NCBI GenBank assembly: GCA_017525915.1
Contig: JAFXSC010000018.1
Span: 124,001 to 188,000, forward strand
Direction of reading: 5' to 3'
Length of the DNA stretch: 64,000 bases
Source: Ruminococcus sp.
Lineage (GTDB): Bacteria; Bacillota; Clostridia; Oscillospirales; Ruminococcaceae
Shown: one piece after another, positions 8,020-54,677 of the stretch
Numbering within the stretch: the first letter of the stretch is position 1
Layout of the letters: each line of letters starts with the position of its first letter
Notes under the pieces: generated by a model
Databases searched by the model: none
What the model was told of the DNA's origin: nothing
What the model saw: only the letters and a program-made list of their open reading frames with translations
Program-made: the position numbers and the translations under genes

Positions 8020-8028
8020 GCATCACTT

Positions 8029-14539: not shown

Positions 14540-14577
14540 CAGAAGAAAAGTATTAAACAAGACAGGAGATGAACGCT

Positions 14578-15744: not shown

Positions 15745-15761
15745 CAGAAGAGGGTGATATT

Positions 15762-16667
15762 ATGATGGGAGAACAATTCTGGTGGTTTTATGATATAATC
15801 GTTGTAGCAGCAATCGGCTTAAGTATGTACATATCCGGCGGAAAAGGCGCGATGAAGGCTTTTTCTACCTTTGTTGCCTATCTTGTTGCGATAGTCATGG
15901 CGCTTTCGATAAGCGCATCTGTATCCGAATCGCTCGCCGGAAATTCTATAAAGAACAGCAATGCCAAGAAGATAAGCAGAACTCTCGAATCTTACAAGTT
16001 TACTTCCAAGGTCGCCGAGCAGATATCCGGCATGGAAGATAAAGTTATAGTCGAGCCGGCACAGCTCGAAAAGATATACAAGGGTACAAAGAGCTACGAT
16101 GCAGAGATATACAAGCTCGTCAACAACAGGCGCGGAAAGAAGATATCCGACAGTCAGGAGGTATTTGCTGAAAAGCTCCACAAAGCATATGCGGAGATAG
16201 TTAAGACCATAGTTTCCGACGAACTCGGCAAGTACGCTACCGAGGTAGCATATAAGGAGGCTCTCGATGACCCCGAGTCCTTCAATACCTTCATTCCGCT
16301 CATCATCGACAAGGAAGACCGCACTCCGGCAGCCGAATACATAGCCGAGAACTATACAAAGCCGGCTTACAGGACGATCACATGGCTGATACTGTTCCTG
16401 ATACTATTTGTGCTGATACTCGTCGGTATGCTCCTGCTTGTGAATTATGTCATGGGGAACGCATACCATGAACAGAGCCTCGCCTCACATATCGGAGGAG
16501 TGTTTATCGGTATACCCAAGGGCATCATACTGAGCTTTGCGGCAGCTGTCCTTGTAAGGCTTTTCGTTGTAATGGGCAGCGATGAGATGCTTTTCTTCAA
16601 TTTTAAGGCAGTAGATAAGACATATCTTTTCAAATATCTGTATAATTATGTTGCAGACCATATGTAA
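15762..16667 (+). CDS. Membrane protein with CvpA-like layout, function unknown
   Basis: A 301-residue protein. There are two hydrophobic segments at the N-terminus (about residues 8-27 and 31-55), a long charged external region of about 150 residues, then two more helices near 205-230 and 243-268. The pairing of short N- and C-terminal helix pairs, with GGKGAMKAFSTFVAYLVA and SHIGGVFIGIPKGIILSFAAA, recalls the CvpA (colicin V production) family, but the match is weak. It follows the DUF5711 gene by 17 bases and precedes the ClpE-like gene by 44. Role unknown. Confidence 0.6.
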   Translation: MMGEQFWWFYDIIVVAAIGLSMYISGGKGAMKAFSTFVAYLVAIVMALSISASVSESLAGNSIKNSNAKKISRTLESYKFTSKVAEQISGMEDKVIVEPAQLEKIYKGTKSYDAEIYKLVNNRRGKKISDSQEVFAEKLHKAYAEIVKTIVSDELGKYATEVAYKEALDDPESFNTFIPLIIDKEDRTPAAEYIAENYTKPAYRTITWLILFLILFVLILVGMLLLVNYVMGNAYHEQSLASHIGGVFIGIPKGIILSFAAAVLVRLFVVMGSDEMLFFNFKAVDKTYLFKYLYNYVADHM

Positions 16668-16711
16668 GCAGGAAACATGAAACAAGAGAACAAACAGGAG
16701 GGATAAACCCT

Positions 16712-19033
16712 ATGATAATGTGCAGCAAATGTAAGAAGCGTCCGGCGGTGGTATTCATCACCTCGGTGCAGGGCAACGAGAAAAAGAACGAAGGGCTCTG
16801 CCTTTCATGTGCAAGAAAGAACAATATTCCGCAGGTCGCTGAGTATATGGACCGTCTTGGCATAACCGACGAGGAGATAGACCAGCTCTCGGACCAGATG
16901 ATGAGTATGCTTGACGGCGATGCCTTTGAAATGGGCGGAAGCGGTCTCATGCCCGACTTCATATCCAATATGTTCGGCGGTGCAGGCGATGAGAATTCGG
17001 CGATCCCGGACGGCGACCAGCAGAAGCAGCGCCCTGACGGTGCTGATGCCAAGGATAAGCCCGAAAAGAAGGGGCTTTTCGGAAGAAGCAAGGACAAGAA
17101 GCCGAAGGAGCTCAAATTCCTCGGAAGCTACTGCACAAACCTTTCCCAGAAGGCTGCTGACGGTCAGCTCGACCGCATTATCGGCAGAGACAAGGAGATA
17201 GCAAGAGTTATCCAGATACTCTCGCGCCGCACAAAGAACAATCCCTGCCTCATAGGCGAGCCCGGCGTCGGAAAGACTGCCATTGCCGAGGGTATCGCAC
17301 AGCGCATCAACGAAGGCGATGTGCCCTTTAATCTTGCTGACAAGAAGCTTTACCTCCTCGACCTTACCGCTCTCGTTGCTGGAACTCAGTTCCGCGGACA
17401 GTTCGAGAGCCGTGTCAAGGGACTTGTTGACGAGGTAAAGCGCGAGGGAAATATCATACTCTTCATCGACGAGGTGCATAACCTTGTCGGCGCAGGAGAC
17501 TCCGAGGGCTCGATGAACGCCGCAAATATCCTCAAGCCCGCTCTTTCAAGGGGCGAGGTGCAGGTCATCGGTGCTACGACCTTCGGAGAATACAGGAAAT
17601 ACATCGAGAAGGATTCCGCGCTCGAGCGCCGTTTCCAGCCGGTTACGGTCAACGAGCCGACCATTGAGGATACGGTTGACGTTCTTCTCGGTATCAAGAA
17701 ATACTACGAGGACTACCACAAGGTGCATATCTCCGATTATCTCGTAAGGGTATGCGCGGTGCTGTCCGAGAGATATATCACAGACCGCTTCCTCCCCGAC
17801 AAGGCGATTGACCTTCTCGACGAGGGCTGTGCAAGGGCCTGCATACGCTCGCCTGAAATTGCGGAATACGCTAAGCTCACCAAGGAGATAGAAGTCCTTG
17901 AAGGCATGGAAAAGAGCATTTCCGAGCAGACTGAGCCGGATTATCAGGCTCTCGCAGAGGTCAAGGGCAAGCTCATCCACGCCCGTGAGGACGCGGAAAA
18001 ACTGAAGGTCAAGGCTGAGAACGTGCAGGTCGAGGAGGGCGATATCACCAAGGTCGTTGAGCTCTGGACCGGTATACCTGCAAGCAAGATAGCCGAGACC
18101 GAATTCCTCAAGATATCCAAGCTGGAGGGCGCACTGAAAAAGCGTGTTCTCGGTCAGGACGAGGCAGTTGAGACCCTCGCAAGGGCTATAAAGCGCACAA
18201 GGGTACACCTCAACAAGCGCCGCCGTCCGGCATCGTTCATATTCGTGGGCCCCACCGGCGTCGGCAAGACCGAGCTCGTAAAGGCTCTTGCGGAGGAGAT
18301 GTTCGATTCGCCCGAGCCGCTCATAAGGCTCGATATGACGGAATATATGGAAAAGCACTCGGTCGCGAGAATGATAGGCTCGCCTCCCGGCTATGTAGGC
18401 TATGACGAAGCAGGTCAGCTCACCGAAAAGGTGCGCCGCAGACCGTATTCCGTTATACTTTTCGACGAAATAGAAAAGGCTCACCCCGATGTCATGAATA
18501 TTCTCATGCAGATCCTCGACGAAGGCAAGGTCGATGACGCTCACGGCAGAACGGTCAACTTCGAGAATACCATCATCTGCATGACCTCAAATGCCGGCTC
18601 TACCGACAAGAGCGTCGGTGTCGGCTTCAACCGTACAGAGAACGAGATATCCAAGGACAAGGCGATGAAGGGACTGAAGGACTTCCTGCGTCCCGAGTTC
18701 ATCAGCCGTATCGACGAGATAGTTGTGTTCAGGCAGCTCACGAAGGAGAACTTCGCACATATCGCGGCGCTCATGCTCGATGAGATGAAGGAGCCGCTTG
18801 CCGAGAAGAATATCTCGCTCACATACACTGACGAGGCATTGAAGCTCATTGCGGAGAAGTCCTACGGAAAGCCTTACGGTGCCCGTGATATCCGCCGCGT
18901 GATACGTCAGGATATCGAGGATAAGATAGCTGAAATAATCATCGAGAGAGCCTCCGCGGTAAGCACAATCGCTGTATCCGTGGACGGTGAAAGCCTTACC
19001 GTTGAGGGCAAGAAGGAGAATACCACGGAATGA
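16712..19033 (+). CDS. ClpE-like AAA+ unfoldase (Clp protease ATP-binding subunit)
   Basis: A 773-residue Hsp100 protein. The N-terminus carries a four-cysteine zinc finger (Cys4, Cys7, Cys30, Cys33), the feature that separates ClpE from ClpC. A low-complexity acidic/Lys linker follows. The first AAA module has Walker A GEPGVGKT near residue 183 and [12 protein letters not shown]; the second has GPTGVGKT near residue 512, [14 protein letters not shown] and GARDIRR. It would unfold damaged proteins for ClpP, which is not encoded here. AGGAGG lies nine bases before the ATG. No CtsR operator was identified upstream. The stop overlaps the next gene by four bases. ClpC is the alternative name some annotators would use. 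Confidence 0.88.
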
Positions 19034-40266: not shown

Positions 40267-40301
40267 AAAAAACAGCGGGACACTGCCGAAACAATGCCCC
40301 G
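40267..40301 (-). terminator. Terminator of the 62-residue protein gene
   Basis: On the minus strand CGGGGCATTG (40301-40292) pairs with CAGTGTCCCG (40285-40276) with two wobble pairs, then a run of T. It lies between the small gene and the yitT-like gene. Confidence 0.6.
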
Positions 40302-40595: not shown

Positions 40596-41588
40596 CTATC
40601 CCACAAGTCCAGACCGCTCAATGCCTTCGGTGAAGTATTTCTGGAGGAAGGTATAAAGTATCAGCAGGGGCGTTATCGAGAGCAGACAGCTTGCCTGTTT
40701 CCAGACTATCTGTTCGCGCGGGCTCATTTTTATCGTGGCATCACCAAACATTCTCAGCGAGAGCTCGCTGTCGAGGTTGTAGAGCATCGTGGAGACCGTT
40801 CTCGTGTTGTGGAAGAACATCGTGCTGACATAGTAATCGTTCCAGTACCATACTATTGAGAACAGGAATACCGTGAGGAAAGCTGGAATGGCGTTAGGTA
40901 TCATCACGCGGACAAAGGTCATGAACGGTCCGCAGCCGTCGATATAAGCCGCGTCCTCAAGCTCGCGGGGAAGTCCGCGGAAGAACTGGCGGAATATCAG
41001 TATCATCAGTCCCGAGCGTATGCCGTTTGCGGTCATAGCCGGGAGGTACATCGTCCATACGCTGTCTATTAGGTTCCTGCTGAACACTCCCTTTATGCCG
41101 AAAAATCTGAACTGGAAGAAAAGCGGCAGCGATATTATCTGTGTCGGGACGAGCATCATGAGTATGACTATGCCGAACAGCAGCTTCTTTCCGCGGAAGC
41201 TGAACCGTGCGAAGCCGTAGCCGGTCAGGGCGCAGGAGGCTACCTGCATGAACGAGCACCCGACATTGATAACGAGCGTGTTCCGCAGAGCGTTCCAGAA
41301 GTCCATAGCCTCAATGGTATCTTTAAGTACGCTCAGGGTCGGGTGGCGCGGTATCCAGAGCACCGTCGGGTCAGTCATGTCGCTCCGGTCGCGGAAGGTG
41401 CAGCTTATCATGTAGAGCAGAGGGTAGAGTATAATGAAGCCGAGCCCGAAAAGTATCAGGAACCGGAAGAACCGCCAGAGCCGGTCGGCGGCATTCCTGC
41501 GGCGTATATAGCTCCGTTCTGCGCGCGGCAGGGACTTCATTCGGAGCCTGCTCCGTTCTTTTGCGCTCATAGTGTTCTTTTCAGCCAT
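40596..41588 (-). CDS. Carbohydrate ABC transporter permease (MalG-like), second pair
   Basis: A 330-residue permease. A basic N-terminal tail of ~40 residues precedes six membrane helices. The EAA coupling motif, which contacts the ATPase, reads ELEDAAYIDGCGPFMTFVRV near residue 225. It is the last gene of the eight-gene run and pairs with the permease gene before it. No ATPase is present in the locus, so a shared multi-sugar ATPase such as MsmX encoded elsewhere is likely to serve it. The C-terminus ends GIERSGLVG, close to the usual GLTSGAVKG-type end of MalG proteins. Confidence 0.88.
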   Translation of the reverse strand: MAEKNTMSAKERSRLRMKSLPRAERSYIRRRNAADRLWRFFRFLILFGLGFIILYPLLYMISCTFRDRSDMTDPTVLWIPRHPTLSVLKDTIEAMDFWNALRNTLVINVGCSFMQVASCALTGYGFARFSFRGKKLLFGIVILMMLVPTQIISLPLFFQFRFFGIKGVFSRNLIDSVWTMYLPAMTANGIRSGLMILIFRQFFRGLPRELEDAAYIDGCGPFMTFVRVMIPNAIPAFLTVFLFSIVWYWNDYYVSTMFFHNTRTVSTMLYNLDSELSLRMFGDATIKMSPREQIVWKQASCLLSITPLLILYTFLQKYFTEGIERSGLVG

Positions 41589-41625
41589 TGGATACTCACC
41601 CCGCTTTCATGTGTTTTCTGATGTG

Positions 41626-42558
41626 TTATTCGTTTTCGTAATATATGAACCGGCTTATCACCGCTGAAAGTATGCCCACTGCTATGAGAACCACCGCAAA
41701 GTATATCCATGCCATTGCCGCGGCAAGACCGTAGTTCATATCCTCGTTCTGGAAGGTCATTATCCTCCGCATGACCTTGTTCATCGGGTTCGTGAAGGAG
41801 TCTATGACCGTGAAAATAAGGTTTGCAAGTATGAACGGACTGACGCAGGGAAGGGTTATCTTCCAGAAGTATTCCCATGAGGTCGCACCCTCGAGCTGCG
41901 CCGCTTCTCTTGCGGAGGATGGGATATTCTGCAAAGCCGCAAGGAACAGGAGTATCTGTATGCCGGAGCTCCAGACTATCCCGAATACATTGTCTGCGAC
42001 TGCGGTGATGAAGTTGGTTATCCTTCCGCTCATGCCGTATACCCCGAGGAACTGCATGAGGTCGCCGACGAGGTCCGTCCTGAACATTGTGGAGAACTGC
42101 GCCGCGCCGGTATTGCCGGTGGACTTGATATCGCCGCTGATTATCTCATATACCGGACCTGTCGCTATGATGACAGGGAGGAAGAATATCGCACGGGAAA
42201 GAGTTCTTCCGCGAAATTTCTGGTTCAGCACGACTGCGATGAACAGCGAGAATATGAGTATGAGCGGAGTTTTCCACAGCGTTTCGATGAGCGTTTCTTC
42301 GAGGAGGTCGGTATACTGCGGGTCCTTGCTGACCGCATGGCGGTAGTTGCTCAGACCCGCCCATTCAACTTTGAGATTTCCGGGCTCGATAGATACCGAG
42401 CTGAAAGAGTAAATCATCGACTTTACGAGCGGTATAAGGAAGAACAGCAAAGTGCCGACAAGCCACAGACTTATGAAGCCGTAGCCGTACCGCGCCTTTC
42501 TCTTTTCGTAGGAGCTGCGCGGTCTTCTGCGTTGCTTTTTGGTTATCTCAGCCTTCAT
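41626..42558 (-). CDS. Carbohydrate ABC transporter permease (MalF/UgpA-like), second pair
   Basis: A 310-residue permease with a basic N-terminal tail (KKQRRRPRSSYEKRK) and six membrane helices. EAA motif: SAREAAQLEGATSWEYFWKI near residue 220. ATG overlaps the stop of the DUF5696 gene by one base, a sign of translational coupling. The large loop after the second helices (EIISGDIKSTGNTG) is longer than in the first-pair homologue, so the two pairs are not recent copies of each other. Together with the downstream permease it forms a second import channel of the locus. Confidence 0.88.
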   Translation of the reverse strand: MKAEITKKQRRRPRSSYEKRKARYGYGFISLWLVGTLLFFLIPLVKSMIYSFSSVSIEPGNLKVEWAGLSNYRHAVSKDPQYTDLLEETLIETLWKTPLILIFSLFIAVVLNQKFRGRTLSRAIFFLPVIIATGPVYEIISGDIKSTGNTGAAQFSTMFRTDLVGDLMQFLGVYGMSGRITNFITAVADNVFGIVWSSGIQILLFLAALQNIPSSAREAAQLEGATSWEYFWKITLPCVSPFILANLIFTVIDSFTNPMNKVMRRIMTFQNEDMNYGLAAAMAWIYFAVVLIAVGILSAVISRFIYYENE

Positions 42559-45413
42559 CAGAAGCTCACGCCTCCTTCCCTTGCGGCTTCTTCAAAATTT
42601 ATCACAGTGCCGTTGAAAGCCACGGTCTTTTTGTCAAGATTGACCTTCACGACAGTACCGTTTGAGTAAGCCGTTGTTATGAGCCTTCCGCCGTTTTCGG
42701 CAGTATAAGCGGTAATAGTGCTCGTGCTTATGCTGCTGAGCAGAGGCTTTAGGGTCCTGTATGCGGCAGCGGCGGTATCTATCCAGCCGGCAGCGTTTGC
42801 GTAGTAGTAGATGTCAAATTCGGTATCTTTAAGCCCGTAGGCGTCCTCACAGAGCATATCGTAGCAGAGCTCACTTCCGGTCGCCGCCGCCATGAGTATC
42901 ATTTCAAGCCCCTCCGGAGAAGCGTTCACGGGAGCGGTGGAATAGGGGATAAGCCCATGCATTACCATCTGGAAGAAGGGAATATCCTCGTCGAAAAGGT
43001 CGAACCGGCTCGATGAGAGCGGAACGTTCCGGATATGGCTGACATAGGGCAGAGCGTAGGCATTTGCGTTGTTGGCAAGTATGCCTCCGCCGAGGCTCTC
43101 GTTTATATCCGCATAGGCGGACACAAGGTCCTGCATCGCGTCATACCGCGAGATGTCCTTCTTTCCGTAGTCGCCGTAAATGGAGGTCGTAAGGCTTGCG
43201 ATATCCACGCCGGAGAGCCCTGCACTGTCGTAACTGCCGGCTGTCTTGCCGAGCACCTTGCCGAAATAGTCCGGCGAGAGCAGGGACTTGTTCTTCCGTG
43301 AGCCGTCCTGTACGCCGTAAGCCCTGTCGTAGCTGACGATGCGTGAGTAGGAACCGGAAATCCTCACGGCAGTTCCGGTGAACGAGTAATAGCCGTTGCC
43401 GGAGCGGAAATCACGGTTGTCGGAGACAGGGTAGAGCTCGAAGCCGTTTTCGTCCGCGTAAGCCTTCAGCGACTTGAAATCGCGCTTTCCGCCAAGTGTA
43501 TTCGAGGGCTTTGCGCCGGTATCCACCTTGTTCTTTATGCCGTCGTTCGTCCAGTTGGCGTAGGAAATGACCATATCCTCAACGCCCCTGTCAAGGAGCT
43601 GGTTGAGTATATCCTCTGCTTCATCGAAGGTAGTTATGGCTGCCTTCATGTTCACAGGTATGCCGAGTATCGACTTTTTCCGCATAACTCCGCCGAAAAG
43701 GTCAACATAGAGCTGAGAGGTGTTCTCTTTGGTCTTCTGTGTGACACCTGCATCTTCTGTGAGGTACTGGCGGTATCTTGCGGCGATATCGGTATAGTCC
43801 GCGCCCTTCTTGGATATCGGATAGAATTTCAGCTCGATATCGTCGGAGTTTATTTCGCCGCGCTCGAACACGGTGAACTCCTGATTGCTGCCGGACATAT
43901 AGTATGTATCTGTTCCGCGGACAATAAATCTGAATCCGCAGAGATTGTAGTCTGTGTTGGACTGCTTCGAGACCTTTGCGGTCAGGAGAGCGTTGGAATC
44001 GCCCTTTGAAGCCACAACGAGCATGGCATTGTCCTCCTTGACTATGCCGTAGACCGGGAGGTATATCTGTTCGGAGAGCGCTCCGCGCGAGGTCGGGACG
44101 ACAGTCGTATCTCCGCCGTAGACCCTCTGCTGATAGGACGAAGCGCCCATATTCTTCCCGTTGTTGAAGCGTATCAGTGCGCCGCTTCCGTCGGGAATGA
44201 CGAAATAGCCTTCCTCCGCCGATGAAGCCGCACCGAAACTGCCGAGGAGAGTTATCTGTGTGGCGATGTGGGCTTTGTTGGTCTCGGTGATGTCGGAGAC
44301 GTTCAGCCGTGCTTTCATGTGGTCGCCCTCAAGTGTGTATTCCACGGGGTATCTGAATCCGGCACGGGAAAAGTCATAGCTCACCCTTATGCCGCCGTCG
44401 ATATCGGTGACGGTCATTTTGCAGTCGGACTCATGTGCCGAGCGCAGGAGATTGTTATTGTTGCGTGTTTCGGGAACGCCGTAGTTGAGAGTGCTCGATG
44501 AACGCAGCTCATCCACGAGAAGGTCGGTCGCGTATGTATCCTGAGTTGCTCCGAGCGGCGAAGACCACCATATATAGCCGGTATCCTTGTTCTCGATGCC
44601 GAAGACCGCATTCCTGTGATCGACTATCATGCGGAAGTATTCATTCTCTGCACCGTCCGAGAAAGAGCCGTAGTAATGGCTGCCGTCCGCAGATACCCAC
44701 GCCTCCTCTGTGCCGGAAGCGTTCGCGTATATCTTCATGCCGTCCTCTGTGCGCTTGTAGGTATAGCTCTCGTCGAGTGACTTGTTATCTCCGGACATGA
44801 GATCGAGGTACTTCCCGCCGTTTCGGAAGAATGCGTTGGGGCTGTCGAGGGTGGAGACTATCTTCCGGACAGTCAGGAGCTTTCCGGTATCCTTTGAAAC
44901 GGTGACGAGAAATCTTCCCTTTCCGCTTATATAGCTCTGCTCGCCGTCTTTTAGGGCAAGCTTCTTGAACGAAGCGGCAGGTTTACGGCTGTCGGTATAT
45001 ACCGCGGCAGCATCTCCGGCAGAACTTACCTGCCTTATTTTTTCCTCCGCAGCCTCCGCATCAGCCTTTTGCTTTTCCGTAAGCCCGGAACGTCTTCCGG
45101 GGTCGCCGTCAGGGAAGCCGTACTCAGCCCAGATTCGTCCCTCAAAGCTGTCGTTTCTGAGATAGAAGCTGATACCCTCCGAGCTTCCGGCAGGAGAATA
45201 GTATTTCTCAACGAGCTCCGGGTCGAAGTCAGCCTTTTCGGCGGCTTCGGAACGCTTGCCGCGCGCTGTCTTATCTGCCGTATCGTCTTCTGTTTCAGCC
45301 GGCAGCGATGTAAAATCGGTCTTGCTGCCGTCGTCCGCATATGCAGCACTTCCGGCTGTCAGCATGAGCACGCTGACCATGCACAGAAGCGACCGTTTTA
45401 TCCTGATATCCAT
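42558..45413 (-). CDS. Secreted DUF5696 protein, probable glycosidase-like fold
   Basis: A 951-residue exported protein. The Sec signal peptide (LLCMVSVLMLTAGSAAYA) is followed by an acidic linker. A beta-rich middle follows (residues ~90-520), with RFLVTVSKDTGKLL, GYIWWSSPLG and GSGALIRFNNG. A region of about residues 560-900 looks like a TIM barrel: MVISYANWTNDGI, FELYPVSDNRDF, GLSGVDIASLTTSIYGD, GILANNANAYALPY, HGLIPYSTAPVNASPEG. This is the DUF5696 family. The barrel layout and partners suggest an enzyme or lectin acting on a surface glycan; catalytic residues cannot be named. The start is at ATG 45413; the GTG at 45422 is an alternative. Confidence 0.78.
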   Translation of the reverse strand: MDIRIKRSLLCMVSVLMLTAGSAAYADDGSKTDFTSLPAETEDDTADKTARGKRSEAAEKADFDPELVEKYYSPAGSSEGISFYLRNDSFEGRIWAEYGFPDGDPGRRSGLTEKQKADAEAAEEKIRQVSSAGDAAAVYTDSRKPAASFKKLALKDGEQSYISGKGRFLVTVSKDTGKLLTVRKIVSTLDSPNAFFRNGGKYLDLMSGDNKSLDESYTYKRTEDGMKIYANASGTEEAWVSADGSHYYGSFSDGAENEYFRMIVDHRNAVFGIENKDTGYIWWSSPLGATQDTYATDLLVDELRSSSTLNYGVPETRNNNNLLRSAHESDCKMTVTDIDGGIRVSYDFSRAGFRYPVEYTLEGDHMKARLNVSDITETNKAHIATQITLLGSFGAASSAEEGYFVIPDGSGALIRFNNGKNMGASSYQQRVYGGDTTVVPTSRGALSEQIYLPVYGIVKEDNAMLVVASKGDSNALLTAKVSKQSNTDYNLCGFRFIVRGTDTYYMSGSNQEFTVFERGEINSDDIELKFYPISKKGADYTDIAARYRQYLTEDAGVTQKTKENTSQLYVDLFGGVMRKKSILGIPVNMKAAITTFDEAEDILNQLLDRGVEDMVISYANWTNDGIKNKVDTGAKPSNTLGGKRDFKSLKAYADENGFELYPVSDNRDFRSGNGYYSFTGTAVRISGSYSRIVSYDRAYGVQDGSRKNKSLLSPDYFGKVLGKTAGSYDSAGLSGVDIASLTTSIYGDYGKKDISRYDAMQDLVSAYADINESLGGGILANNANAYALPYVSHIRNVPLSSSRFDLFDEDIPFFQMVMHGLIPYSTAPVNASPEGLEMILMAAATGSELCYDMLCEDAYGLKDTEFDIYYYANAAGWIDTAAAAYRTLKPLLSSISTSTITAYTAENGGRLITTAYSNGTVVKVNLDKKTVAFNGTVINFEEAAREGGVSF

Positions 45414-45451
45414 AAACATCACCGCCGTTCTCAGAAACGTCCGGAAGAGGG

Positions 45452-46081
45452 CTATACCCTCAGCCTGTAAGTTATCTCAGTGTAAATAGTTGAAAGGAAT
45501 ACCCATATCTGCTGTATCAGCGACAGGAACAGCACCAGCAGGAACAGCATCACGAGCATTGCCGCCGCCGTCAGGACTATCGCAAAGCAGGTCTTGCCGG
45601 GGGAATACTGGTGCACCGACCTCACCGCCGAGAATATCAGTATCGCCGACCAGCCCGTGCCTATCAGCTCTACCGCGTCCATGAACACCTTTTCGTCCTG
45701 TATAAGTATGTGCGAAAGCAGGACGTTTATCAACAGCTGTGCGATGTAGGGTATGAGGGCGTAGGCACTGTAAATACATATATTCCGGGCAGTACCCTCG
45801 CCGTCGAGGAGGGTGCATACCGCCCAGTTCCCGGCTACCCACGCCGCAAAGATCACAACGCTCCTGACGAGATAGGGGACAATGCTGAAGGTCTTTTCAG
45901 CCGGCATCCCGAACTGGAAGCCGTAAAGTCTGCTGTGGGCTATCTGTGCGAAAAAGAGCAGTAGGACTATGAGAAGCGCTATCCTCATCGAGCCGGAGCG
46001 TTTCCAGCGCATATCCTCAAAGCCCTCGACAGGGTGGGTAACTGCGTGCCTGACCCACTGCCGCTCAGTCAGATCCATCAT
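45452..46081 (-). CDS. YIP1-family membrane protein
   Basis: A 209-residue protein with five hydrophobic helices after a 28-residue hydrophilic head: IALLIVLLLFFAQIAH, VVIFAAWVAGNWAVCTLL, ICIYSAYALIPYIAQLLINVLL, ILIFSAVRSVHQY and a long last helix. The Ala-Tyr-Ala-Leu-Ile-Pro pattern is typical of the YIP1/DUF1282 group. Bacterial members have no firm function. It overlaps the NHL-protein gene by 17 bases and precedes the DUF5696 gene by 38, so it belongs to the same run, perhaps as a membrane anchor or assembly factor. Confidence 0.78.
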   Translation of the reverse strand: MMDLTERQWVRHAVTHPVEGFEDMRWKRSGSMRIALLIVLLLFFAQIAHSRLYGFQFGMPAEKTFSIVPYLVRSVVIFAAWVAGNWAVCTLLDGEGTARNICIYSAYALIPYIAQLLINVLLSHILIQDEKVFMDAVELIGTGWSAILIFSAVRSVHQYSPGKTCFAIVLTAAAMLVMLFLLVLFLSLIQQIWVFLSTIYTEITYRLRV

Positions 46082-47576
46082 CGGACTGCTCCTCCTTTTC
46101 TTTGTTATTGCCTGCCGCAGAACGCCTGCGTCTGCGCCTTCCGCGGAGTATGAGAGCCGCAGTTGAAATCATGATAACTGCGGCGATAGCTGCAAAATGC
46201 TTCTTTATGAACTCGCGGCGGTATCCCTCGAATGCCTTGTTGTAGATGTCGGGAGAGCCTGCGCGTTTTGCATACTTCATCGAGCCCTTGTAGTCGCCTT
46301 TTCTGAGGAGGGCTGAAGCTACGCCGATATTTGCGCGTTTATAGCCGCTGTCGCGCCGCAGCACCTCGTACCATGGTTCAAGGGCTTCCTCATAGTATCC
46401 GGCATTGTAAAGAGCGGTCGCCTTGTGGACTGCCGCTCCGAAATCCGTCTCGCGGAACACAGTAACGGTATCCTTCACCGAATCGACCACATAGAGCTTG
46501 TTCGCGTGAGATTCGAGAGCAGCCGCTGAGGTGAATCCGCCGAGCTGATTTGCTTTTGCACCGGCAATGAACAGTAGGTTGCAGTCCTCGTCGTACTGGA
46601 AAATGCGCCCGGTGGTATAGTCAAGGCAGTTTATGCAGCCGTCCTCTGATATGTCGATATCGGTTATCGCAGGGGAAAAGACGGTATTCTGGTAGGAATC
46701 GTATATCGGGGTGTAGTCGCCGATGACAAGCGGAAGATTTGCAAAGATATTCTTTCCGGCGGCGTTGAGCTTCTTTACCGTGTCAGTTTTCTGGGAAGAT
46801 GACGAAGTGCAGGTGAAAATGAAATCCCCGTCGATGTCGAAGCTCGTTATGCCGGTCGGGACGTTCCTTGTTCTTCGCGCCTTCTTTTCCTCGGTAAGAA
46901 AAAGACTGCGGAAGAACGTGCCGATTATCTCCTTTGTCGGCTGAACTCTGTTTGCGCCGTAGAAACCAATGAACTTTCCGTCCGGACTGAACATTGCTGC
47001 GCCTGTGGTGATATTTCCGAGAACGGTATAGACGTTGCCGGCTTTGTCTGCGAGAACTCTCAGGGGCTTGAAGGTAGGGGCGTTGTAGACCGGATCGTCC
47101 GGACGGGTGATCTCGCTGATGTAACCGCCTTCCCTTGTGGCGATGAGTACGCGGTCGTTTTCGCTGTCGGCGATGTACATATATCCCGTGTACTGCGAGA
47201 CATACACGCCCTTTGGCTTGTCGAGAGTTGTTTTTGAGCCGTCAGGCTTTGTGAAGCTGCTGTACACCTTCACTGCGGAGGTGAACTCCTCATCAACGGC
47301 TACGATACGGTCATTTTTGGTATCGGCGATGTAGAACAGACCGTCCCATGCACAGAAAATATCGCTCGGAGTATCGAAGCTCCCCACACCGAGGTCGCTG
47401 CCGGAGACCGAACGTTCGGCGGCATAGCCTGCCTGCGATGGGACAGCCTCGTTCCAGCGGTCGTAGTTGTAGGATTCGGAGGGCTCGCCTGCATTGGCAG
47501 CCGACGGTATGACCGAGCCTGCAAAAATAACTGCGGCACAGAGAGCTGCCGCGAGCCTGCGCTTATTCTTCTTCAA
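46065..47576 (-). CDS. Exported NHL-repeat/TPR protein with C-terminal anchor
   Basis: A 503-residue protein. A signal peptide (AALCAAVIFAGSVIPSAANA) is followed by a beta-propeller region of NHL type in residues ~60-390: FDTPSDIFCAWDGLFYIADTKNDRIV, LDKPKGVYV, GYMYIADSENDRVLIAT and KLYVVDSVKDTVTVFR (each quoted in part). Residues ~395-455 read as TPR helices (ATALYNAGYYEEALEPWYEVL). A single membrane helix near 463-480 and an Arg-rich tail fix it in the membrane with the propeller outside. It may organise the surface complex or bind ligand; no enzyme site is visible. Confidence 0.82.
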   Translation of the reverse strand: MKKNKRRLAAALCAAVIFAGSVIPSAANAGEPSESYNYDRWNEAVPSQAGYAAERSVSGSDLGVGSFDTPSDIFCAWDGLFYIADTKNDRIVAVDEEFTSAVKVYSSFTKPDGSKTTLDKPKGVYVSQYTGYMYIADSENDRVLIATREGGYISEITRPDDPVYNAPTFKPLRVLADKAGNVYTVLGNITTGAAMFSPDGKFIGFYGANRVQPTKEIIGTFFRSLFLTEEKKARRTRNVPTGITSFDIDGDFIFTCTSSSSQKTDTVKKLNAAGKNIFANLPLVIGDYTPIYDSYQNTVFSPAITDIDISEDGCINCLDYTTGRIFQYDEDCNLLFIAGAKANQLGGFTSAAALESHANKLYVVDSVKDTVTVFRETDFGAAVHKATALYNAGYYEEALEPWYEVLRRDSGYKRANIGVASALLRKGDYKGSMKYAKRAGSPDIYNKAFEGYRREFIKKHFAAIAAVIMISTAALILRGRRRRRRSAAGNNKEKEEQSDDGSD

Positions 47577-47600
47577 TGCCGCACCTCCCTGCGGAAAATG

Positions 47601-48479
47601 TTACTCCTTTATGCCGGAGTGAGCCATGGTTTCGATAACGTGTCTCTGTGCGAGGGTGAACACTATCACGGGCGGCACAAGTATGAATACGGATACCGCG
47701 CTCGCAACGCCTGCCCTTGCCATTCCCGAGGCGGCGACCTGTGAAGCGGCAGTGGTCAGTGTCTTGTACTGCTCCTGAAATACGAGCGAGCCGGACTGTA
47801 TGTTCCATGCGCCCTGAAACGCGAATATTATGAGCGTCATGAGCGCCGGTTTCTGGTTGGGTATGACTATCTGCCAGCATATCCGGAAAAGCCCTGCGCC
47901 GTCCACCTTTGCTGCCTCTATCATGGAATCCGGCATCTGCGCCATTGACTGACGCATGAGGAACAGTCCGAGAGGAGAAGCTACCGACGGCAGTATAAGC
48001 GCAAGAGGGTCGTCGATAAGGTGCAGCTTAGCCATGACGATATACTGCATGATGTATATGACATTGCTCTGATACAGCAGTGATATGACGATGATGCTGT
48101 TGATTATCCTGCTGCCGGGAAATCTGCATTTTGCGAGCACGAACGCCGCCATTGATGCAAAAAGCACCTGTAAGACGGTAACGGATACCGTTACTGCGAC
48201 GCTGTTGAAGACATAGCGCGAGAACGGGACGCGGTTACGGTGCATCGCCGCAAAGAGGTCGCGGTAGTTGTCGAGCGTGGGGCGGAGGACATAGAGCTTC
48301 GGCGGGAATATGAACAGTTCCTCCACCGGCTTGACCGACATCACCAGTGCGAGATATATCGGGAAAAGCATGAACGCTCCGAGAACGAGCAGGAACAGGA
48401 ATATAGCGACTGTTCCGCCTATCTTCCTTCCGGCGCGCCTGTTTGAAGCCTTGAGCTTAGCGGTATTTATCTGAGACAT
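47601..48479 (-). CDS. Carbohydrate ABC transporter permease (MalG-like), first pair
   Basis: A 292-residue permease with six helices and the EAA motif MIEAAKVDGAGLFRICWQIV near residue 195. ATG 48479 was chosen because GGAGG lies six bases upstream; an earlier ATG in frame runs through the upstream gene end. It follows its partner permease by 11 bases and precedes the NHL-protein gene by 24. Confidence 0.9.
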   Translation of the reverse strand: MSQINTAKLKASNRRAGRKIGGTVAIFLFLLVLGAFMLFPIYLALVMSVKPVEELFIFPPKLYVLRPTLDNYRDLFAAMHRNRVPFSRYVFNSVAVTVSVTVLQVLFASMAAFVLAKCRFPGSRIINSIIVISLLYQSNVIYIMQYIVMAKLHLIDDPLALILPSVASPLGLFLMRQSMAQMPDSMIEAAKVDGAGLFRICWQIVIPNQKPALMTLIIFAFQGAWNIQSGSLVFQEQYKTLTTAASQVAASGMARAGVASAVSVFILVPPVIVFTLAQRHVIETMAHSGIKE

Positions 48480-48490
48480 TGCCGCCCTCC

Positions 48491-49402
48491 TTAATCCATA
48501 TACCGGCTCAGAGCCTTGCTTATGAGGCGGCTGAGAAGGTACATGGCAATGAACAGCAGCATACATATCGCCGAGGCGTAGCCCATCTCATAGCGTACCC
48601 ACCCGTAGTCGTAGGCGTGGGTCATGACGGTATGTGCGCTGTAATCCGTACTCGGGAAGCCGACAAGGTTCTGTGCGACTGCTCCGGCTGTGAAGGAAGC
48701 GACTATCTGCATTACTGCCGCAAACATGAGCTGCGGTCCCATAGAGGGGATAACGATGTATATTAGCTCCTGCCAGCGTGTGCTGATGCCTTCGATAGCA
48801 CCGGCTTCATAGAGGGCGGGATCGATGTTCTGGAAGCCTGCACGGAGCGCAAGGAAGCCTGCTCCGAGGGATATCCAGAGCTGTACGATTATCGTGACTT
48901 TAAGTATATATTTCGGGTCGGTGAGCCACTGTACGGGCGAGGTCACTACTCCGAGCCTTATCAGGAGGGAGTTGAGATAGCCGTTCATATCTCCGCTGAA
49001 AATTATCTGCCATACGAAGTAGATGCTTGCCATTGACGGTATATAGAATATCAGCGTGAAAAACGTCCGGAGCTTCGGGGGCAGCTCATTTATGAGCCAC
49101 GCAAGCAGGAAGCAGAGCACATAGCTCACAGGACCGGTAACTATCGCAAATATGAGAGTTATCCTTATCGACTTTATGAACACCCTGTCCGAGAGGAAAA
49201 GAGTCGTGTAATTGGAGAGCCCGACGTATTTCGGCGGCTGTACCATATCGAAGTCGGTGAAGCCCATAGGCAGTGACATCACGACCGGCACAACTGTGAA
49301 TATTATAAAGAATATCATGAACGGCGCGAGCATGAGATAACACGCCTTGCTGCGCTTTATCGAACTCCACAGACTGCGGTGCCCGGCAGTATTCTTTGCC
49401 AA
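48491..49402 (-). CDS. Carbohydrate ABC transporter permease (MalF/UgpA-like), first pair
   Basis: A 303-residue permease with a hydrophilic head, six helices (CYLMLAPFMIFFIIFTVVPVV first) and the EAA motif ALYEAGAIEGISTRWQELIY near residue 205. The start is TTG 49402: AAGGAGG is eight bases from it but overlaps the in-frame GTG at 49411. It lies 30 bases after the solute-binding gene and is the natural partner of that protein. Confidence 0.9.
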   Translation of the reverse strand: MAKNTAGHRSLWSSIKRSKACYLMLAPFMIFFIIFTVVPVVMSLPMGFTDFDMVQPPKYVGLSNYTTLFLSDRVFIKSIRITLIFAIVTGPVSYVLCFLLAWLINELPPKLRTFFTLIFYIPSMASIYFVWQIIFSGDMNGYLNSLLIRLGVVTSPVQWLTDPKYILKVTIIVQLWISLGAGFLALRAGFQNIDPALYEAGAIEGISTRWQELIYIVIPSMGPQLMFAAVMQIVASFTAGAVAQNLVGFPSTDYSAHTVMTHAYDYGWVRYEMGYASAICMLLFIAMYLLSRLISKALSRYMD

Positions 49403-49432
49403 TGGCTTCACCTCCTTATTTGTGTTTCGGAA

Positions 49433-52369
49433 CTAAGAACTGAGATTTTTCCGCTTGCGCTCTATCTCCTCGTTTATGTCGCGGTCGTACCAGATAAGCG
49501 TATCGCGCGGATTTGCCATATTGTTGACCGTTTCGCGGAAGGCGTTCATGATGTTCCTTGTAACGGCGTATGACGAGGGCAGGACTGGTATCTCCGCAAG
49601 CTCGTCCTGCTGTGCGCGGAGACGTTTCAGTTCGTCCTCCGACCAAGAGAGCTGACCGAGAGCCTCGACATTTGCGGTATCGAACCTTCCGAGAACGCCG
49701 AGAAGTCCTTCGGTCTGGGTGCCGTACTGCACCTGTGTCTCTGCTGAGGTGAACCATTTTATGAACTCCCAGCAATTCTCCTTGTTGTCTGCCTTGCTGA
49801 AGATTATCGCTCCCGAGCCCGAAGAATTTGCGGCATGGGATATAGTGCCGTCAGCGCGGGGAGTGCCGGGAACAGGGCAGAAGGCCCACAGTCCCTTTAT
49901 CTCCGGAGCGGCAGCTTCAAGCTGGTTGCAGAAGGTATAATTTGCGATAACGAGCGGATATTCGCCTGTGCGGAAGCGGTTGAAGGCGTCGTAGGTCTGC
50001 TCAAAGCTGTATTTCGTGTAGAAGTCCGTCCACTGCTCAAAGGCCTGTACTGCCTCCGCCGAGCTGAAGGTCGTGGCGGTCTGTTCATCGTTGTAGTAGT
50101 TCATGCCCTTCTGGAGAAGGAGCATTGCAAAGGTATGTCCGGCTTCCGTTGCAGGGGAGATATTTGTAGGCGGAAGGATAAGACCCACGGACATATAGCT
50201 GCGCTGTATGGCAGGGAGCATATCTATGAGGTCCTGCCATGTTTCAGGCGGATGCGTAAATCCAAGCTCTGACAGGACGTCCGTCCTGTAAAACAGCATC
50301 GGGAAGGTCTGGCTTATCGGCAGACCGTATACCCCGCCGTTGTAGGAATACTGGGTCATGGCGTTCTTCTGGAAGCGCTGTGAGACCTCGCCGTAGTCGC
50401 TGAACTGCGCCACATCGGTGAGCAGTCCTCTCGCGGCAAGGTTCACGGGGAATTCTCCGCCGACGAACAGCGCGACGTCAGGACCTTTTCCGGCAAGTGA
50501 AGCTTCTATTATTCCGCCTGAGACAAGCTCGACGGAGACTGGAATGCCGCTTTCCGGCGTGAATTGGTTCTTTGTGAGCTCACTGACTACCTGCGCCTGA
50601 TCGCGTCCGAGCGCCACCCATACCTCTACCGCACCCTTTCCGCTCACGTCGGAAACGGTGGTGTAGTCATCGAGGAACGAGCCTATGAAGGCATCAAAGC
50701 CGAATTTCAGGGACTTTGTGACCTCCTTGCGGCAGCTTGTGAAATTCTCGCCTGCTGAAACGAATTCTATGAAATCGACCTCAAGGGGCTGACCGCGGTA
50801 ATCCCTCATCCATGCGGATACTGAGGTGAGGTCGTCCTTTATGCGGGGAAGGTAAGACGGTATTTTAAGCGGCTTTTTCACGCATTTGCGGAGTATTACC
50901 GCCATTCTTTCAAGCACGGAGGCCTCCGAGCCGGCAGCACCGGAAAGGTCCTCGATGCCGTCCTGAATATCTTCGAGGTCACCGGCAATGCGGCTGAACT
51001 CCCCGACGAGCTCGGGTATGCGCTCATGGACGTAATAATCGGTATAGGTGTCCGGTACGGGACCGGTTATCATCAGTATCCTGCGGTAAAATTTATTGAG
51101 GTCGGCAACGGAGCTGTCAAGGCGCCGCATAAAGCTGCCTATCTCGCCGGGAACAGCTTCCAGCGTTATGGTGTGGTCGCGCGAAGCGTCGAGGTAGACG
51201 TAGATGTCCTCGCCGTCCTCAGTTTCGAGCGTTTTCATCTTCCAGTCCTTGCCGTAGGAGAATCCTACGCTGTCAAGCTCCTTGCAGATGACTTTTCCGT
51301 CAATATATATCCTTCTGTTCGAGTTAAGTCCTCGCATCTGGTCCTGGCGGTACTTTATGCCTATGCGGTACCAGCCGGAATTGCCTATATCTTCGCGTGT
51401 GACTGTCCATGTGATACTCTGGAGGGCTTTGCTCCAGTTCGAGCCGCCTATACTATTGTACAGTATCTTTCTCGGGTCGGCGGGCGACATGAGGTAGGTC
51501 GTATTGTCATATGCCGGGCAGAGCGAAGCATCGGTCTTGAAGGCAGCGTTCTCGCCTTCGATACGAAATTTCCGGTCGGGAGTGCTCTCCGGCGTCCGTT
51601 CTGCTTTTACAGAAGCGGTATATTCGCTGTATGACGGCAGTCCTGCCGGATTGCAGAAGCGGAAGCTGTCTATCGCGACCTGCGCTCTGCCGGAGGTGAA
51701 GGTGATATCGTGGCTGCCCTTTTCGAGGTAGAAGAACAGCGGCTCGCTGAACAGACCGTCGGTATCCCCGAAAAGCCTGTCCTGCCACATTTCCTTCTGC
51801 ACCTGTGCCGGGCGCACCTGATTGCCGCGTGAGTCCTTGTATATCGGCTGTTCGTTGACCCATACCCTCGGGAGACTTATTCTGGCGGCAGTTTCATACG
51901 GAACTTCCCCGTCGACAGCAACGGAGAGTTCAACAGCCGAACTGCCGGACTTCATGCCGCAGTAGGTCACTCCGAGGCAGTAAATACCGGTCTCGGGTAT
52001 CTCGAACCGGTAGCTGACCGAGCCGGAGGCACTTTCCCAGACGAGAGCGTTCTTGTGGGTAACTCCGTCAGCGGTGTAGTCGCCTGTTGTGATATCGCCC
52101 TCCGCGGAGGTATAGTCGCTGCCCCTGACTGTAACTGTGGCGTCGGGACGGGGACAGCCGCTGTATATGTCATAGTAGCTGCTGAAGGTCATGAGGTCGG
52201 CAGCGGAAGGGTCGAAGGAGTAGTAATCGTCCTCCATTGCGGCAAGGGTGAGCTCGGATACGGCACTGCCGTCATCGTCCGCCGCAAATGAGGGGACTGA
52301 GCTTCCGGCAGCGATAACGAGGGCGAGAAGCCCGGATGTAAGAGCTACGGCGAGCTTTTTTATTCTCAT
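49433..52369 (-). CDS. Solute-binding protein fused to two beta-sandwich (CBM-like) domains
   Basis: A 978-residue exported protein, over twice the size of a normal sugar-binding protein. A Sec signal ends SVPSFA near residue 27, with no lipobox cysteine. Two beta-sandwich segments follow, at about 40-245 (YRFEIPETGIYCLGVTYCG, HDITFTSGRAQVAIDSFRF) and 265-405 (KFRIEGENAAF, GWYRIGIKYRQ, HTITLEAVPG). Both look like CBM6/35-type modules. A helical linker leads to a MalE-type binding protein from about 576 to the end (GPDVALFVGGEFPVNLAARG, YGLPISQTFPMLFYRTDVL, WEFIKWFTSAETQ). It is the first gene of the eight-gene run. ATG 52369 has GGAGG eight bases upstream. Confidence 0.82.
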   Translation of the reverse strand: MRIKKLAVALTSGLLALVIAAGSSVPSFAADDDGSAVSELTLAAMEDDYYSFDPSAADLMTFSSYYDIYSGCPRPDATVTVRGSDYTSAEGDITTGDYTADGVTHKNALVWESASGSVSYRFEIPETGIYCLGVTYCGMKSGSSAVELSVAVDGEVPYETAARISLPRVWVNEQPIYKDSRGNQVRPAQVQKEMWQDRLFGDTDGLFSEPLFFYLEKGSHDITFTSGRAQVAIDSFRFCNPAGLPSYSEYTASVKAERTPESTPDRKFRIEGENAAFKTDASLCPAYDNTTYLMSPADPRKILYNSIGGSNWSKALQSITWTVTREDIGNSGWYRIGIKYRQDQMRGLNSNRRIYIDGKVICKELDSVGFSYGKDWKMKTLETEDGEDIYVYLDASRDHTITLEAVPGEIGSFMRRLDSSVADLNKFYRRILMITGPVPDTYTDYYVHERIPELVGEFSRIAGDLEDIQDGIEDLSGAAGSEASVLERMAVILRKCVKKPLKIPSYLPRIKDDLTSVSAWMRDYRGQPLEVDFIEFVSAGENFTSCRKEVTKSLKFGFDAFIGSFLDDYTTVSDVSGKGAVEVWVALGRDQAQVVSELTKNQFTPESGIPVSVELVSGGIIEASLAGKGPDVALFVGGEFPVNLAARGLLTDVAQFSDYGEVSQRFQKNAMTQYSYNGGVYGLPISQTFPMLFYRTDVLSELGFTHPPETWQDLIDMLPAIQRSYMSVGLILPPTNISPATEAGHTFAMLLLQKGMNYYNDEQTATTFSSAEAVQAFEQWTDFYTKYSFEQTYDAFNRFRTGEYPLVIANYTFCNQLEAAAPEIKGLWAFCPVPGTPRADGTISHAANSSGSGAIIFSKADNKENCWEFIKWFTSAETQVQYGTQTEGLLGVLGRFDTANVEALGQLSWSEDELKRLRAQQDELAEIPVLPSSYAVTRNIMNAFRETVNNMANPRDTLIWYDRDINEEIERKRKNLSS

Positions 52370-52426
52370 GAGCCTTGCCTCCTTCCTTGTCATAAAGCTT
52401 ACATAATTGCATAGATAGCCAATATA

Positions 52427-52455
52427 AGTATATCAAAATACTGGCGTTATGTCAA
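52427..52455 (-). promoter_or_regulatory. Promoter of the eight-gene transport locus
   Basis: On the minus strand TTGACA (52455-52450) and TATACT (52432-52427) are separated by 17 bases, about 58 bases before the solute-binding gene. It is the only strong promoter seen for 11.8 kb. No obvious regulator gene adjoins it. Confidence 0.8.
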
Positions 52456-52502: not shown

Positions 52503-52531
52503 TTGACAAACGTTCACTGTTGTGGTATCAT
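52503..52531 (+). promoter_or_regulatory. Promoter of the ABC-2 exporter operon
   Basis: TTGACA (52503-52508) and TATCAT (52526-52531) are separated by 17 bases, about 60 bases before the ATPase gene and divergent from the transport-locus promoter. Confidence 0.75.
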
Positions 52532-52591: not shown

Positions 52592-53332
52592 ATGTCAGAT
52601 GTACTTGAGGTCAGAGGACTCACCAAGCAGTATTCAAAGGTGCTTGCTGCGGACAAGGTGAGCTTCACGATCGGCGAAGGAGAGATATTCGCTCTCATCG
52701 GTCCGAACGGTGCCGGAAAAACTACCACGATACGCATGATCTCCACCCTGCTTATGCCAACTGCCGGAGATGCGATAGTCGCAGGCCACAGCGTCGTCAA
52801 GGAACCTGCAAAGGTGCGTGAGTGCATAACCTACCTCCCCGACGAAGCCGGTGCTTACAAGAATATGACCGGTCTGAGATACCTGCGCTTCATGGCAGGA
52901 CTTTTCGTCTCGGATATCGACGGTATCAATGCTGCCGTTGAACGTGCAAAGGAAATGTGCGGGCTCGGCGACCGCCTTGAGGACAAGATAGGCAGTTACA
53001 GCCGCGGCATGATAAGAAAGCTCCTGCTCTCACGCGCTGTAATGACACGTCCGAAGCTTGCCATACTTGATGAGCCGACCAGCGGACTTGACGTTCTCAA
53101 CGCTATTGAAATAAGAAAGATGATAAAGGAACTTGCCGAAAAGGAGAAGATGTCCTTCCTGCTTTCGTCGCACAATATGCTCGAGATAGAATTCGTTTCC
53201 GACCGCGTAGGCATAATCACAGGCGGTCATCTCATGGTGACCGGAAGCGCGGACGAGCTCAAGGAGCGCTACGGTGCGAACAACCTTGAAGAAGTGTTTG
53301 AAAGGGTGGTGAAAGAGCATGAAGTTCATTAA
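52592..53332 (+). CDS. ABC transporter ATPase (NatA-like)
   Basis: A 246-residue ATPase. Walker A is GPNGAGKTT, signature SRGMIRKLLLSRA, Walker B LAILDEPTSGLD and His in LSSHNMLE. The signature loop SRGM (not SGGQ) is usual in the NatA/CcmA class that pairs with ABC-2 permeases. Its stop overlaps the next gene by 14 bases. Exported substrate is unknown; NatAB homologues export Na+ or small peptides/antibiotics. Confidence 0.92.
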   Translation: MSDVLEVRGLTKQYSKVLAADKVSFTIGEGEIFALIGPNGAGKTTTIRMISTLLMPTAGDAIVAGHSVVKEPAKVRECITYLPDEAGAYKNMTGLRYLRFMAGLFVSDIDGINAAVERAKEMCGLGDRLEDKIGSYSRGMIRKLLLSRAVMTRPKLAILDEPTSGLDVLNAIEIRKMIKELAEKEKMSFLLSSHNMLEIEFVSDRVGIITGGHLMVTGSADELKERYGANNLEEVFERVVKEHEVH

Positions 53333-54677
53333 CCTTCTGAAAAAGGAGCTTTCCGAGCTCATAAACCTCCAGATGATACTGGGGCTGGTCGTGGCTCTCG
53401 GCATATTCATGGTTCTCGGCGGCATCATGGACACTACCATCGACGAGGCAAAGGAGGAGACCACCAACGTCACCATACGCCTCTGCGACCGCGATAATAC
53501 GGAGTATACGAAGTCACTGATAGAATCAATAAAGAAGGACGGCAATAAGGTCAAGATATTCGAGACATCCGGCAGCGACTATGCAGCTATATTGGATGAG
53601 AACGACATCAAGGACCTCATAATCATACCGGAGGGCTTTACTGCTGCCCTTGAAAAGAGCGAAAGGCCTGAGATAATCACGGTCTCAAGAATGAAATCTG
53701 CTGCAACTCTCTCAAACCTCAATGTCGGAACATCGAGCGGTCTTTCAATAATAAAGGACAAGATAGCCGCTGATGTTGCTTCAAGGAACGGAATGAGCGC
53801 GCAGGATTATTCCATTATCGAGACACCTGTACAGGTACGGGAGAATACCGTTGTTGACGACAAGTCCGCGGAGATAGCTCCCGGGGACATCATGAGCAAG
53901 ATAGCGCTTCAGAACAGCATCATGCCGCTAATAGTCTTCGTACTTATTATAATGACCTCGCAGATGCTCATGAGTGCCGTTGCAAATGAAAAGACCGACA
54001 AGACTCTTGAAACTCTCCTCTCTGCACCTGTTTCACGCGGCGCGGTCATCGGTGCAAAGATGCTTGCGGCTGCTATAATCGCACTTATCAATGCCGGTGT
54101 GTATATGTTCGGCTTCACCTTCTTCGTAAGCGGCGCGACAGATACAGTAGCAGATGCGGCGAAAGAACTCGTTGAAAGCTCGCTCTCAGTCGATGAGGCT
54201 ATCAGCAAGCTCGGACTTACGCTCGGAGGCCTCGACTACTTCCTTGTAGGCTTGCAGCTGTTCTTCACTATCATGATATGCCTTTCCGTATCGCTCATAC
54301 TCGGTGCTCTTGTGAACGACTCAAAGAACACCCAGAACATGATAATGCCTATCATGATGCTTGCAATGATACCTTACATGATATCCGTGCTTGCAGATAT
54401 AAACGGACTTCCTGCTGTATTCAGATATATCGTCTACGCTATACCGTTTACACATACCTTCTCGGCGATACCCAATCTCATGTTCGGAAACAGAACGCTT
54501 TTCTTTGCCGGACTTATCTATCAGATGATAGTATTCGCAATATGTATGTTCTTTGCACTCAGACTGTTCATGTCCGACAAGATATTCACGATATCCCTCA
54601 ACTTCGGTCAGAAGTCGAAATACAAGTCCAGGAAGCGCAAGGCTGAAAAGGCTGCCGCTTCCAAAAAGGAGGAATGA
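53319..54677 (+). CDS. ABC-2 type permease (NatB-like)
   Basis: A 452-residue permease. One helix near residues 18-38 (MILGLVVALGIFMVLGGIM) is followed by an external domain of ~160 residues (TNVTIRLCDRDNTEYTKSLI) and then about five helices from residue 190 to 430, with FLVG- and NDSKNTQNMIMPIMMLAM-type sequences of the ABC-2 class. The tail is Lys/Arg-rich. It forms the membrane half of the exporter with the ATPase before it and ends three bases before deoD. Confidence 0.88.
   Translation: MKFINLLKKELSELINLQMILGLVVALGIFMVLGGIMDTTIDEAKEETTNVTIRLCDRDNTEYTKSLIESIKKDGNKVKIFETSGSDYAAILDENDIKDLIIIPEGFTAALEKSERPEIITVSRMKSAATLSNLNVGTSSGLSIIKDKIAADVASRNGMSAQDYSIIETPVQVRENTVVDDKSAEIAPGDIMSKIALQNSIMPLIVFVLIIMTSQMLMSAVANEKTDKTLETLLSAPVSRGAVIGAKMLAAAIIALINAGVYMFGFTFFVSGATDTVADAAKELVESSLSVDEAISKLGLTLGGLDYFLVGLQLFFTIMICLSVSLILGALVNDSKNTQNMIMPIMMLAMIPYMISVLADINGLPAVFRYIVYAIPFTHTFSAIPNLMFGNRTLFFAGLIYQMIVFAICMFFALRLFMSDKIFTISLNFGQKSKYKSRKRKAEKAAASKKEE

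Follow-up and report, generated by a model that had tools for sequence, protein, structure and literature searches.

Among ATP-binding cassette (ABC) importers, the closest described counterparts of the locus reported here are the CUT1 (maltose-transporter-like) importers of the MalEFGK2 type, including those with a common MsmX-type ATPase, along with the Gram-positive polysaccharide utilization loci, which combine a glycosidase, an ABC importer, and a regulator. Here, we analyzed an eight-gene cassette of Ruminococcus sp. encoded in a 64,000-nucleotide stretch of contig JAFXSC010000018.1 (positions 124,001 to 188,000 of the forward strand), hereafter "the window". The cassette consists of module A, i.e., a giant binding protein and permease pair 1 (P1a, P1b), and module B, i.e., an NHL protein, a YIP1 protein, a DUF5696 protein, and permease pair 2 (P2a, P2b). 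It includes an SBP_bac_1/8-type extracellular sugar-binding protein alongside BPD_transp_1 permease pairs, as do CUT1 importers, and probably represents a two-channel importer of oligosaccharides of the CUT1 type, equipped with accessory proteins. It differs from MalEFGK2-type importers by its two permease pairs and by a binding protein of 986 aa that carries a CBM35-like part and a stalk, and further adds the NHL, YIP1, and DUF5696 proteins. This kind of importer is already known, and the accessory set is the new part: no functional study of NHL, YIP1, and DUF5696 with an importer was found in the open-access literature, and a full-text search of that literature, whose coverage excludes most subscription journals, returned no paper on DUF5696. 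Three findings described below add to the original prediction made from this DNA: the two-module structure, the fusion of NHL and YIP1, and the existence of another binding-protein family.

DUF5696 was detected in 35 of the 35 other genus genomes examined, apparently once each (in G011 and G014 as two pieces), and in 13 of 24 genera elsewhere in the order, while 30 of the 299 genomes in a phylum sample, our own included, scored over the DUF5696 Pfam cut-off. For the marginal phylum-sample matches (G332, G353), no cassette was found in the stretch fetched. Using profiles from the window and its relatives, we mapped the cassette in 79 fetched DUF5696 loci, including 51 from the genus and order, with contig-edge pieces (G005, G014) removed, and 28 of the 45 strong phylum-sample matches counted outside genomes G000 and G053, the other 17 being left out of the synteny analysis; the weak matches L210, L211, and L212 were left out of all counts. 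An NHL gene was present in 77 of these loci (in the two exceptions the contig ends 127 and 257 bases upstream) and a P2 pair in 78 (in the exception it ends 1 base downstream). Modules A and B were found together in 62 loci, 47 with a separate YIP1 gene and 15 with a fused NHL-YIP1 gene, while 12 displayed no module A in the examined stretch (L186, L187, L188, L192, L193, L195, L199, L203-L207) and 5 were cut by contig ends. The module-B-only loci span 4.0–9.1 kb upstream and 3.9–7.0 kb downstream of DUF5696, and a more distant module A is possible. The scan also kept 80 named relatives, mainly Ruminococcus flavefaciens strains (FD-1 and 007c included) and Ruminococcus metagenome-assembled genomes from rumen and gut: all eight genes were separate, in one order and on one strand, in 62 of their loci, three had a long NHL gene and no separate YIP1, and 15 lacked at least one gene, many of these contigs being short. 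Overall, the grouping is conserved down to 24% identity and extends to other families of the phylum. The co-occurrence on which the original prediction had staked its model was thus observed, a chance neighborhood of eight genes was rejected on these counts, and the probability that the genes are unrelated neighbors is close to nil. This conclusion was drawn from synteny and not from promoter-like or terminator-like sites, which were near chance number in the window (12 promoter-like sites observed vs 10.3 expected; 17 terminator-like sites vs 12.3). One genome of the same order (G045, 1.8 Mb) contained six DUF5696 loci (L061-L066).

Deposited annotations illustrate the cassette in more distant genera. 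In Butyrivibrio fibrisolvens D1, the cassette (L230) is carried by the 243-kb plasmid pNP243, where it is preceded by a GH43 gene and followed by two binding proteins. On a Paenibacillus cellulosilyticus plasmid, the cassette is directly preceded by a ugpC ATPase gene, and a single 719-aa YIP1 family protein replaces NHL and YIP1. This provides one example of the similar gene sets in Paenibacillus-like genomes mentioned in the original prediction. The same Paenibacillus cassette is followed (L231:16952-26175) by two binding proteins and four flavin-dependent oxidoreductases of the LLM class, which hints at an unusual substrate in this species.

In the window, the predicted run of eight co-directional genes behind a promoter was borne out by the list of open reading frames (ORFs) and by a promoter-like site matching 11 of 12 consensus positions. 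All eight ORFs are located on the minus strand between 40596 and 52393, with successive gaps, 5' to 3', of 21, 11, 24, −17, 38, −1, and 37 bases when 48479 and 45413 are taken as the starts of P1b and DUF5696. The likely P1b start is an ATG preceded by the ribosome-site-like AAGGAGGG, while the DUF5696 ORF encodes 954 aa from a GTG vs 951 aa from the ATG at 45413. Of the seven inner genes, five (P1a, P1b, NHL, YIP1, and P2a) are preceded by ribosome-site-like sequences, as judged by eye; together with gaps of 11–38 bases and overlaps of 1 and 17 bases, these would fit a single transcript. Between the two modules, the beginning of the NHL gene contains a weak terminator-like hairpin (47552-47533); it is one of the sites found in near-chance number, and could set the ratio of module A to module B.

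All four permeases scored over the BPD_transp_1 cut-off, P2a barely (26.7 bits, cut-off 26.4), which substantiates the two permease pairs initially proposed, and no ATPase or regulator gene was found within the eight-gene run by ORF list and Pfam, as had also been noted. Elsewhere in the genome, a single OB_MalK match was identified, a 379-aa ATPase located away from the cassette among unrelated-looking genes. The genome contained 11 permease-domain matches: the four in the cassette, three further pairs, and one beside its own ATP-binding gene. Each of the further pairs adjoins its own binding protein, with no MalK in the stretch read. Since a single OB_MalK ATPase is available for five carbohydrate-type permease pairs, these pairs seem to share it, in line with the common ATPase envisioned for the two channels.

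At least three binding-protein genes were found on contigs without a permease match (L255:2476-3765, L256:2368-3753, and L257:2391-3896), the first adjoining apparent signalling genes. Among six binding proteins compared from this genome (two more weak matches on C32 were left out), only the paralogues L256 and L257 matched those encoded next to the cassette or module B in L182, L189, L230, and L186, i.e., four of six reference proteins, with E-values between 1e-7 and 1e-16 for a 13-sequence set. Matches to L256 were detected in 58, and to L257 in 59, of 60 genus genomes (own included), and in 34 of 34 of the best ones. At ortholog level, L256 was found in 57 of the 60 (not in G004, G029, or G016) and L257 in 55 (not in G029, G001, G005, G021, or G460; partial in G004 and G455). 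These two proteins are likely partners of channel 2.

The giant binding protein begins with a signal segment followed by two beta-sandwiches (about residues 87–247 and 275–414), a helical stalk (about 418–533), and a MalE-type domain (585–986, by fold search), with SBP_bac_8 as its clear Pfam match. The second sandwich is CBM35-like, matching by profile the part of 5x7g that we take to be CBM35 (E 1.1e-8), and the first is weakly so. Because the fold search leaves the front part uncovered, this likeness rests on sequence; CBM_35 was not matched by Pfam in the window protein, for which only Golvesin_C was found, under its cut-off. Among 18 relatives, Golvesin_C matches (11) were more frequent than CBM_35 matches at E ≤ 0.1 (7) or GH115_C matches (3). 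The top profile match was a designed coiled coil, via the stalk, and a viral fold search returned nothing usable. Unlike typical CBM35 modules, the cassette domain stands ahead of a transport binding domain. Such a MalE-type domain behind a CBM35-like part, combined with two permease pairs, supports the surface glycan capture and import that had been proposed. In one related locus (L033, about 13969-16926 in cassette orientation), the giant binding protein is seen as two frames, as is P1a in another (L044, about 7538-8475), reflecting either a sequencing error or a broken gene.

The second module begins with the NHL protein, originally described as an anchored NHL/TPR protein. The NHL part barely passes (20.6, cut-off 20) and relatives display one membrane segment near the C-terminus, whereas the TPR part fell short, TPR_16 scoring under its cut-off (18.2, cut-off 32.7). 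YIP1 (PF04893) is more clearly matched (56.8 bits, cut-off 28.6). The two were fused into one protein in 28 of 77 loci, a fusion being counted when a YIP1 domain was found in the NHL protein or when the latter exceeded 600 aa; all ten long NHL proteins listed include a C-terminal YIP1 domain.

DUF5696 (PF18952) was matched at 529.8 bits (cut-off 25.6), and in the model, residues 255–949 display the GH129 arrangement of a beta-sandwich, a (beta/alpha)8 barrel, and a C-terminal beta domain. By fold search, it is closest to two enzymes with shown activity. The nearest described glycosidases are GH129 and GH129-like enzymes (NagBb, 5wzn; DagB, 5opq), at about 13% identity. DUF5696 thus shares the fold of GH129 and GH129-like glycosidases but differs by this low identity, by its location in an importer cassette, and by a catalytic residue that is not kept: the Asp of "LDGW" in NagBb, altered in the quadruple mutant 5wzq and presumably the catalytic D330, corresponds to column 622, which is Ala in the window; Asp is absent from the nine most frequent residues of this column, which together account for 152 of 160 sequences. 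Column counts are from a table of 160 DUF5696 sequences that is redundant, L072-L151 partly repeating L021-L053. The window protein gave no hit to Pfam Glyco_hydro_129 (PF11308) at E-values up to 1, and this family was found in 0 of 149 and 0 of 299 phylum genomes, although the control matched nowhere either, so that this is no sign of absence. Searches (tblastn) with pieces of DagB and NagBb against plasmids returned no match and two weak matches, the L211 protein as query matched in 3 of 398 genomes, and GH101 was found in 4 of 249. Two references from genome G135 gave GH101-family matches (L251 and L254; 75.9 and 64.1 bits); this genome also has four DUF5696 matches, including L192, a locus with module B only. 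The L211 protein itself (L211:4622-7237, 871 aa, from another Bacillota genome), with an Asp at the apparent end of strand 4, resembles a bridge between DUF5696 and GH129-like enzymes.

The surroundings of module B point to plant glycans. We scanned ten proteins from six module-B-only loci with Pfam (in L193, the binding protein only), and five of the six included plant-glycan enzymes over cut-off: GH106 (L186), GH42 (L187), GH31 (L188), a GH27-type melibiase (L203), and GH28 with PcRGLX-like domains (L204), the latter presumably indicating a rhamnogalacturonan lyase. Binding proteins were over cut-off in L186, L187, and L193, and just under in L204. These adjacent enzymes therefore tie module B to plant-glycan import. 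The glycosidase genes beside module-B-only loci and the Butyrivibrio cassette recall Gram-positive polysaccharide utilization loci, whereas no linked glycosidase or regulator was found among the window ORFs for the Ruminococcus run. By contrast, no evidence was obtained for the host glycan or mucin initially suggested as substrate: the named relatives are rumen and gut Ruminococcus, and plant-glycan genes surrounded module B without A in five of the six loci scanned.

Taken together, these observations suggest that module A may be responsible for glycan capture, with the CBM35-like part, on its helical stalk, holding a polymer or long chain, and the MalE-type domain passing an oligosaccharide to channel 1. 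Module B would then be a second importer, in which channel 2 (P2a and P2b) is assisted by a membrane-anchored NHL protein coupled to YIP1, while DUF5696, a protein of GH129 fold, may bind or trim chain ends close to the channel. The binding protein feeding channel 2 would be a conventional lipoprotein, encoded next to the cassette in some other genera and perhaps elsewhere in the genome in Ruminococcus, with two candidates, and one common MalK-type ATPase would power both channels. Several points weigh against this model. ATPases without OB_MalK would escape the domain search used here, the unlinked binding proteins could instead serve the other three permease pairs, the flanking binding protein of the Paenibacillus locus L231 matches neither L256 nor L257 but our L228, and for the second one of L230 no match was found among our binding proteins. 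Contact between modules A and B is suggested by genetic linkage only, and the substrate is conjectural, a catabolic role being extrapolated from other genera since the Ruminococcus run includes no glycosidase or regulator. Finally, presence in every genus genome would fit a housekeeping role.

DUF5696 may be an active exo-glycosidase that cleaves an alpha-linked sugar of galactose type off the captured glycan beside the channel, a reading that we regard as possible if rather doubtful. Its fold is nearest to two active enzymes and, according to PMC5698469, NagBb D435 corresponds to DagB D486 and, of the two NagBb catalytic residues, the active DagB retains just one. Our alignments to six references by hhalign (91% for L211, 85% for L254, 15% for L247, 3% for L251, and 1% each for L245 and L250; L211 and L254 significant) were read by eye, and NagBb and DagB did not align at D435/D486. 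At D751, Asp is conserved in 149 of the 160 sequences; column 784, on which the strand-5 Glu of the reference falls for L254 (and L247; column 786 for the non-significant L245), is acidic in 120. However, D751 pairs with a second Asp of the references L211 and L254, whose strand-4 Asp falls on columns 737 and 742, respectively, five columns apart and neither kept acidic (for L245 and L250, both non-significant, it falls near 745 and 747); column 740, which closes barrel strand 4 in the model, holds Ser, Ala, or Cys in 144 of the 160 sequences although Asp in the window; and column 784 is Asn in the window. The presence of module B in loci for different glycans also argues against this reading. 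Proof that DUF5696 is a dead enzyme was attempted and not reached, and the protein may or may not be catalytic; the processing role first assigned to DUF5696 is putative, its GH129 fold being present while D330 is not kept.

Modules A and B could also be independent importers that share an operon for co-expression only, with the accessory proteins serving channel 2 alone. We consider this a serious contender, just short of an even chance, as module B occurs without A in 12 loci and the cassette order is variable (the P2 pair is ahead of the binding protein in L063, and module A follows module B in L201), yet both modules are retained in most loci across great divergence. At the other extreme, a more integrated complex of new build, in which one common ATPase would power two channels supplied by three binding proteins, with an ex-glycosidase DUF5696 turned glycan receptor and an NHL-YIP1 scaffold, as a functional monoderm counterpart of Bacteroidota outer-membrane glycan-capture complexes, seems rather unlikely. 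A role in recycling or surveying glycans on the surface of the cell itself (teichoic acid, capsule, or sheath), and not in handling food glycans, is improbable: the constant, apparently single-copy DUF5696 of the genus and the absence of an adjoining glycosidase or regulator in the window speak for such a function, but the plant-glycan genes around module B, the GH43 gene heading the Butyrivibrio cassette, and the several copies in some genomes, six in one of 1.8 Mb, are at odds with it. The two-channel importer remains the reading we favor.

Features of the eight-gene cassette in the window, in 5' to 3' order
Feature	Position	Strand	Basis
Promoter-like site, TTGACA-17-TATACT, TG before second hexamer	52427..52455	-	11/12 consensus matches; consensus only
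Module A: giant binding protein, 986 aa	49433..52393	-	ORF, Pfam SBP_bac_8, fold and profile matches
Module A: permease P1a	48491..49411	-	ORF, BPD_transp_1
Module A: permease P1b, likely start 48479	47601..48566	-	ORF, BPD_transp_1
Module B: secreted NHL/TPR-like protein, 503 aa	46065..47576	-	ORF, Pfam; NHL-YIP1 fusion at some other loci
Module B: YIP1 membrane protein, 209 aa	45452..46081	-	ORF, Pfam Yip1
Module B: DUF5696 protein, 954 aa from GTG	42558..45422	-	Pfam; GH129 fold at residues 255-949
Module B: permease P2a	41626..42558	-	ORF, BPD_transp_1
Module B: permease P2b	40596..41588	-	ORF, BPD_transp_1
Terminator-like site 3' of last gene, longest hairpin of scan	40276..40301	-	Consensus only

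Neighbors of the cassette in the window, named by eye, resemble ABC-2-type exporter, YitT-like, and TrpB-like genes. The ABC-2-type ATPase and permease pair (52592-54677) is divergent from the cassette, head to head with it, and has its own promoter-like site with 11/12 matches (52503-52531), opposite in direction to that of the cassette. Such a pair is also divergent and upstream of the cassette in 17 of 33 same-genus loci.

This analysis now places DUF5696 beside the GH129 glycosidases and suggests that NHL-YIP1 proteins may act as accessory subunits in sugar import. Relatives of Ruminococcus flavefaciens are major rumen fibre digesters, and the DUF5696 of the cassette is found in each of the 36 genus genomes examined. 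For this genus, the cassette provides candidates for the uptake of breakdown products, namely one protein for capture and two channels, together with two binding proteins and one MalK-type ATPase encoded elsewhere in the genome.
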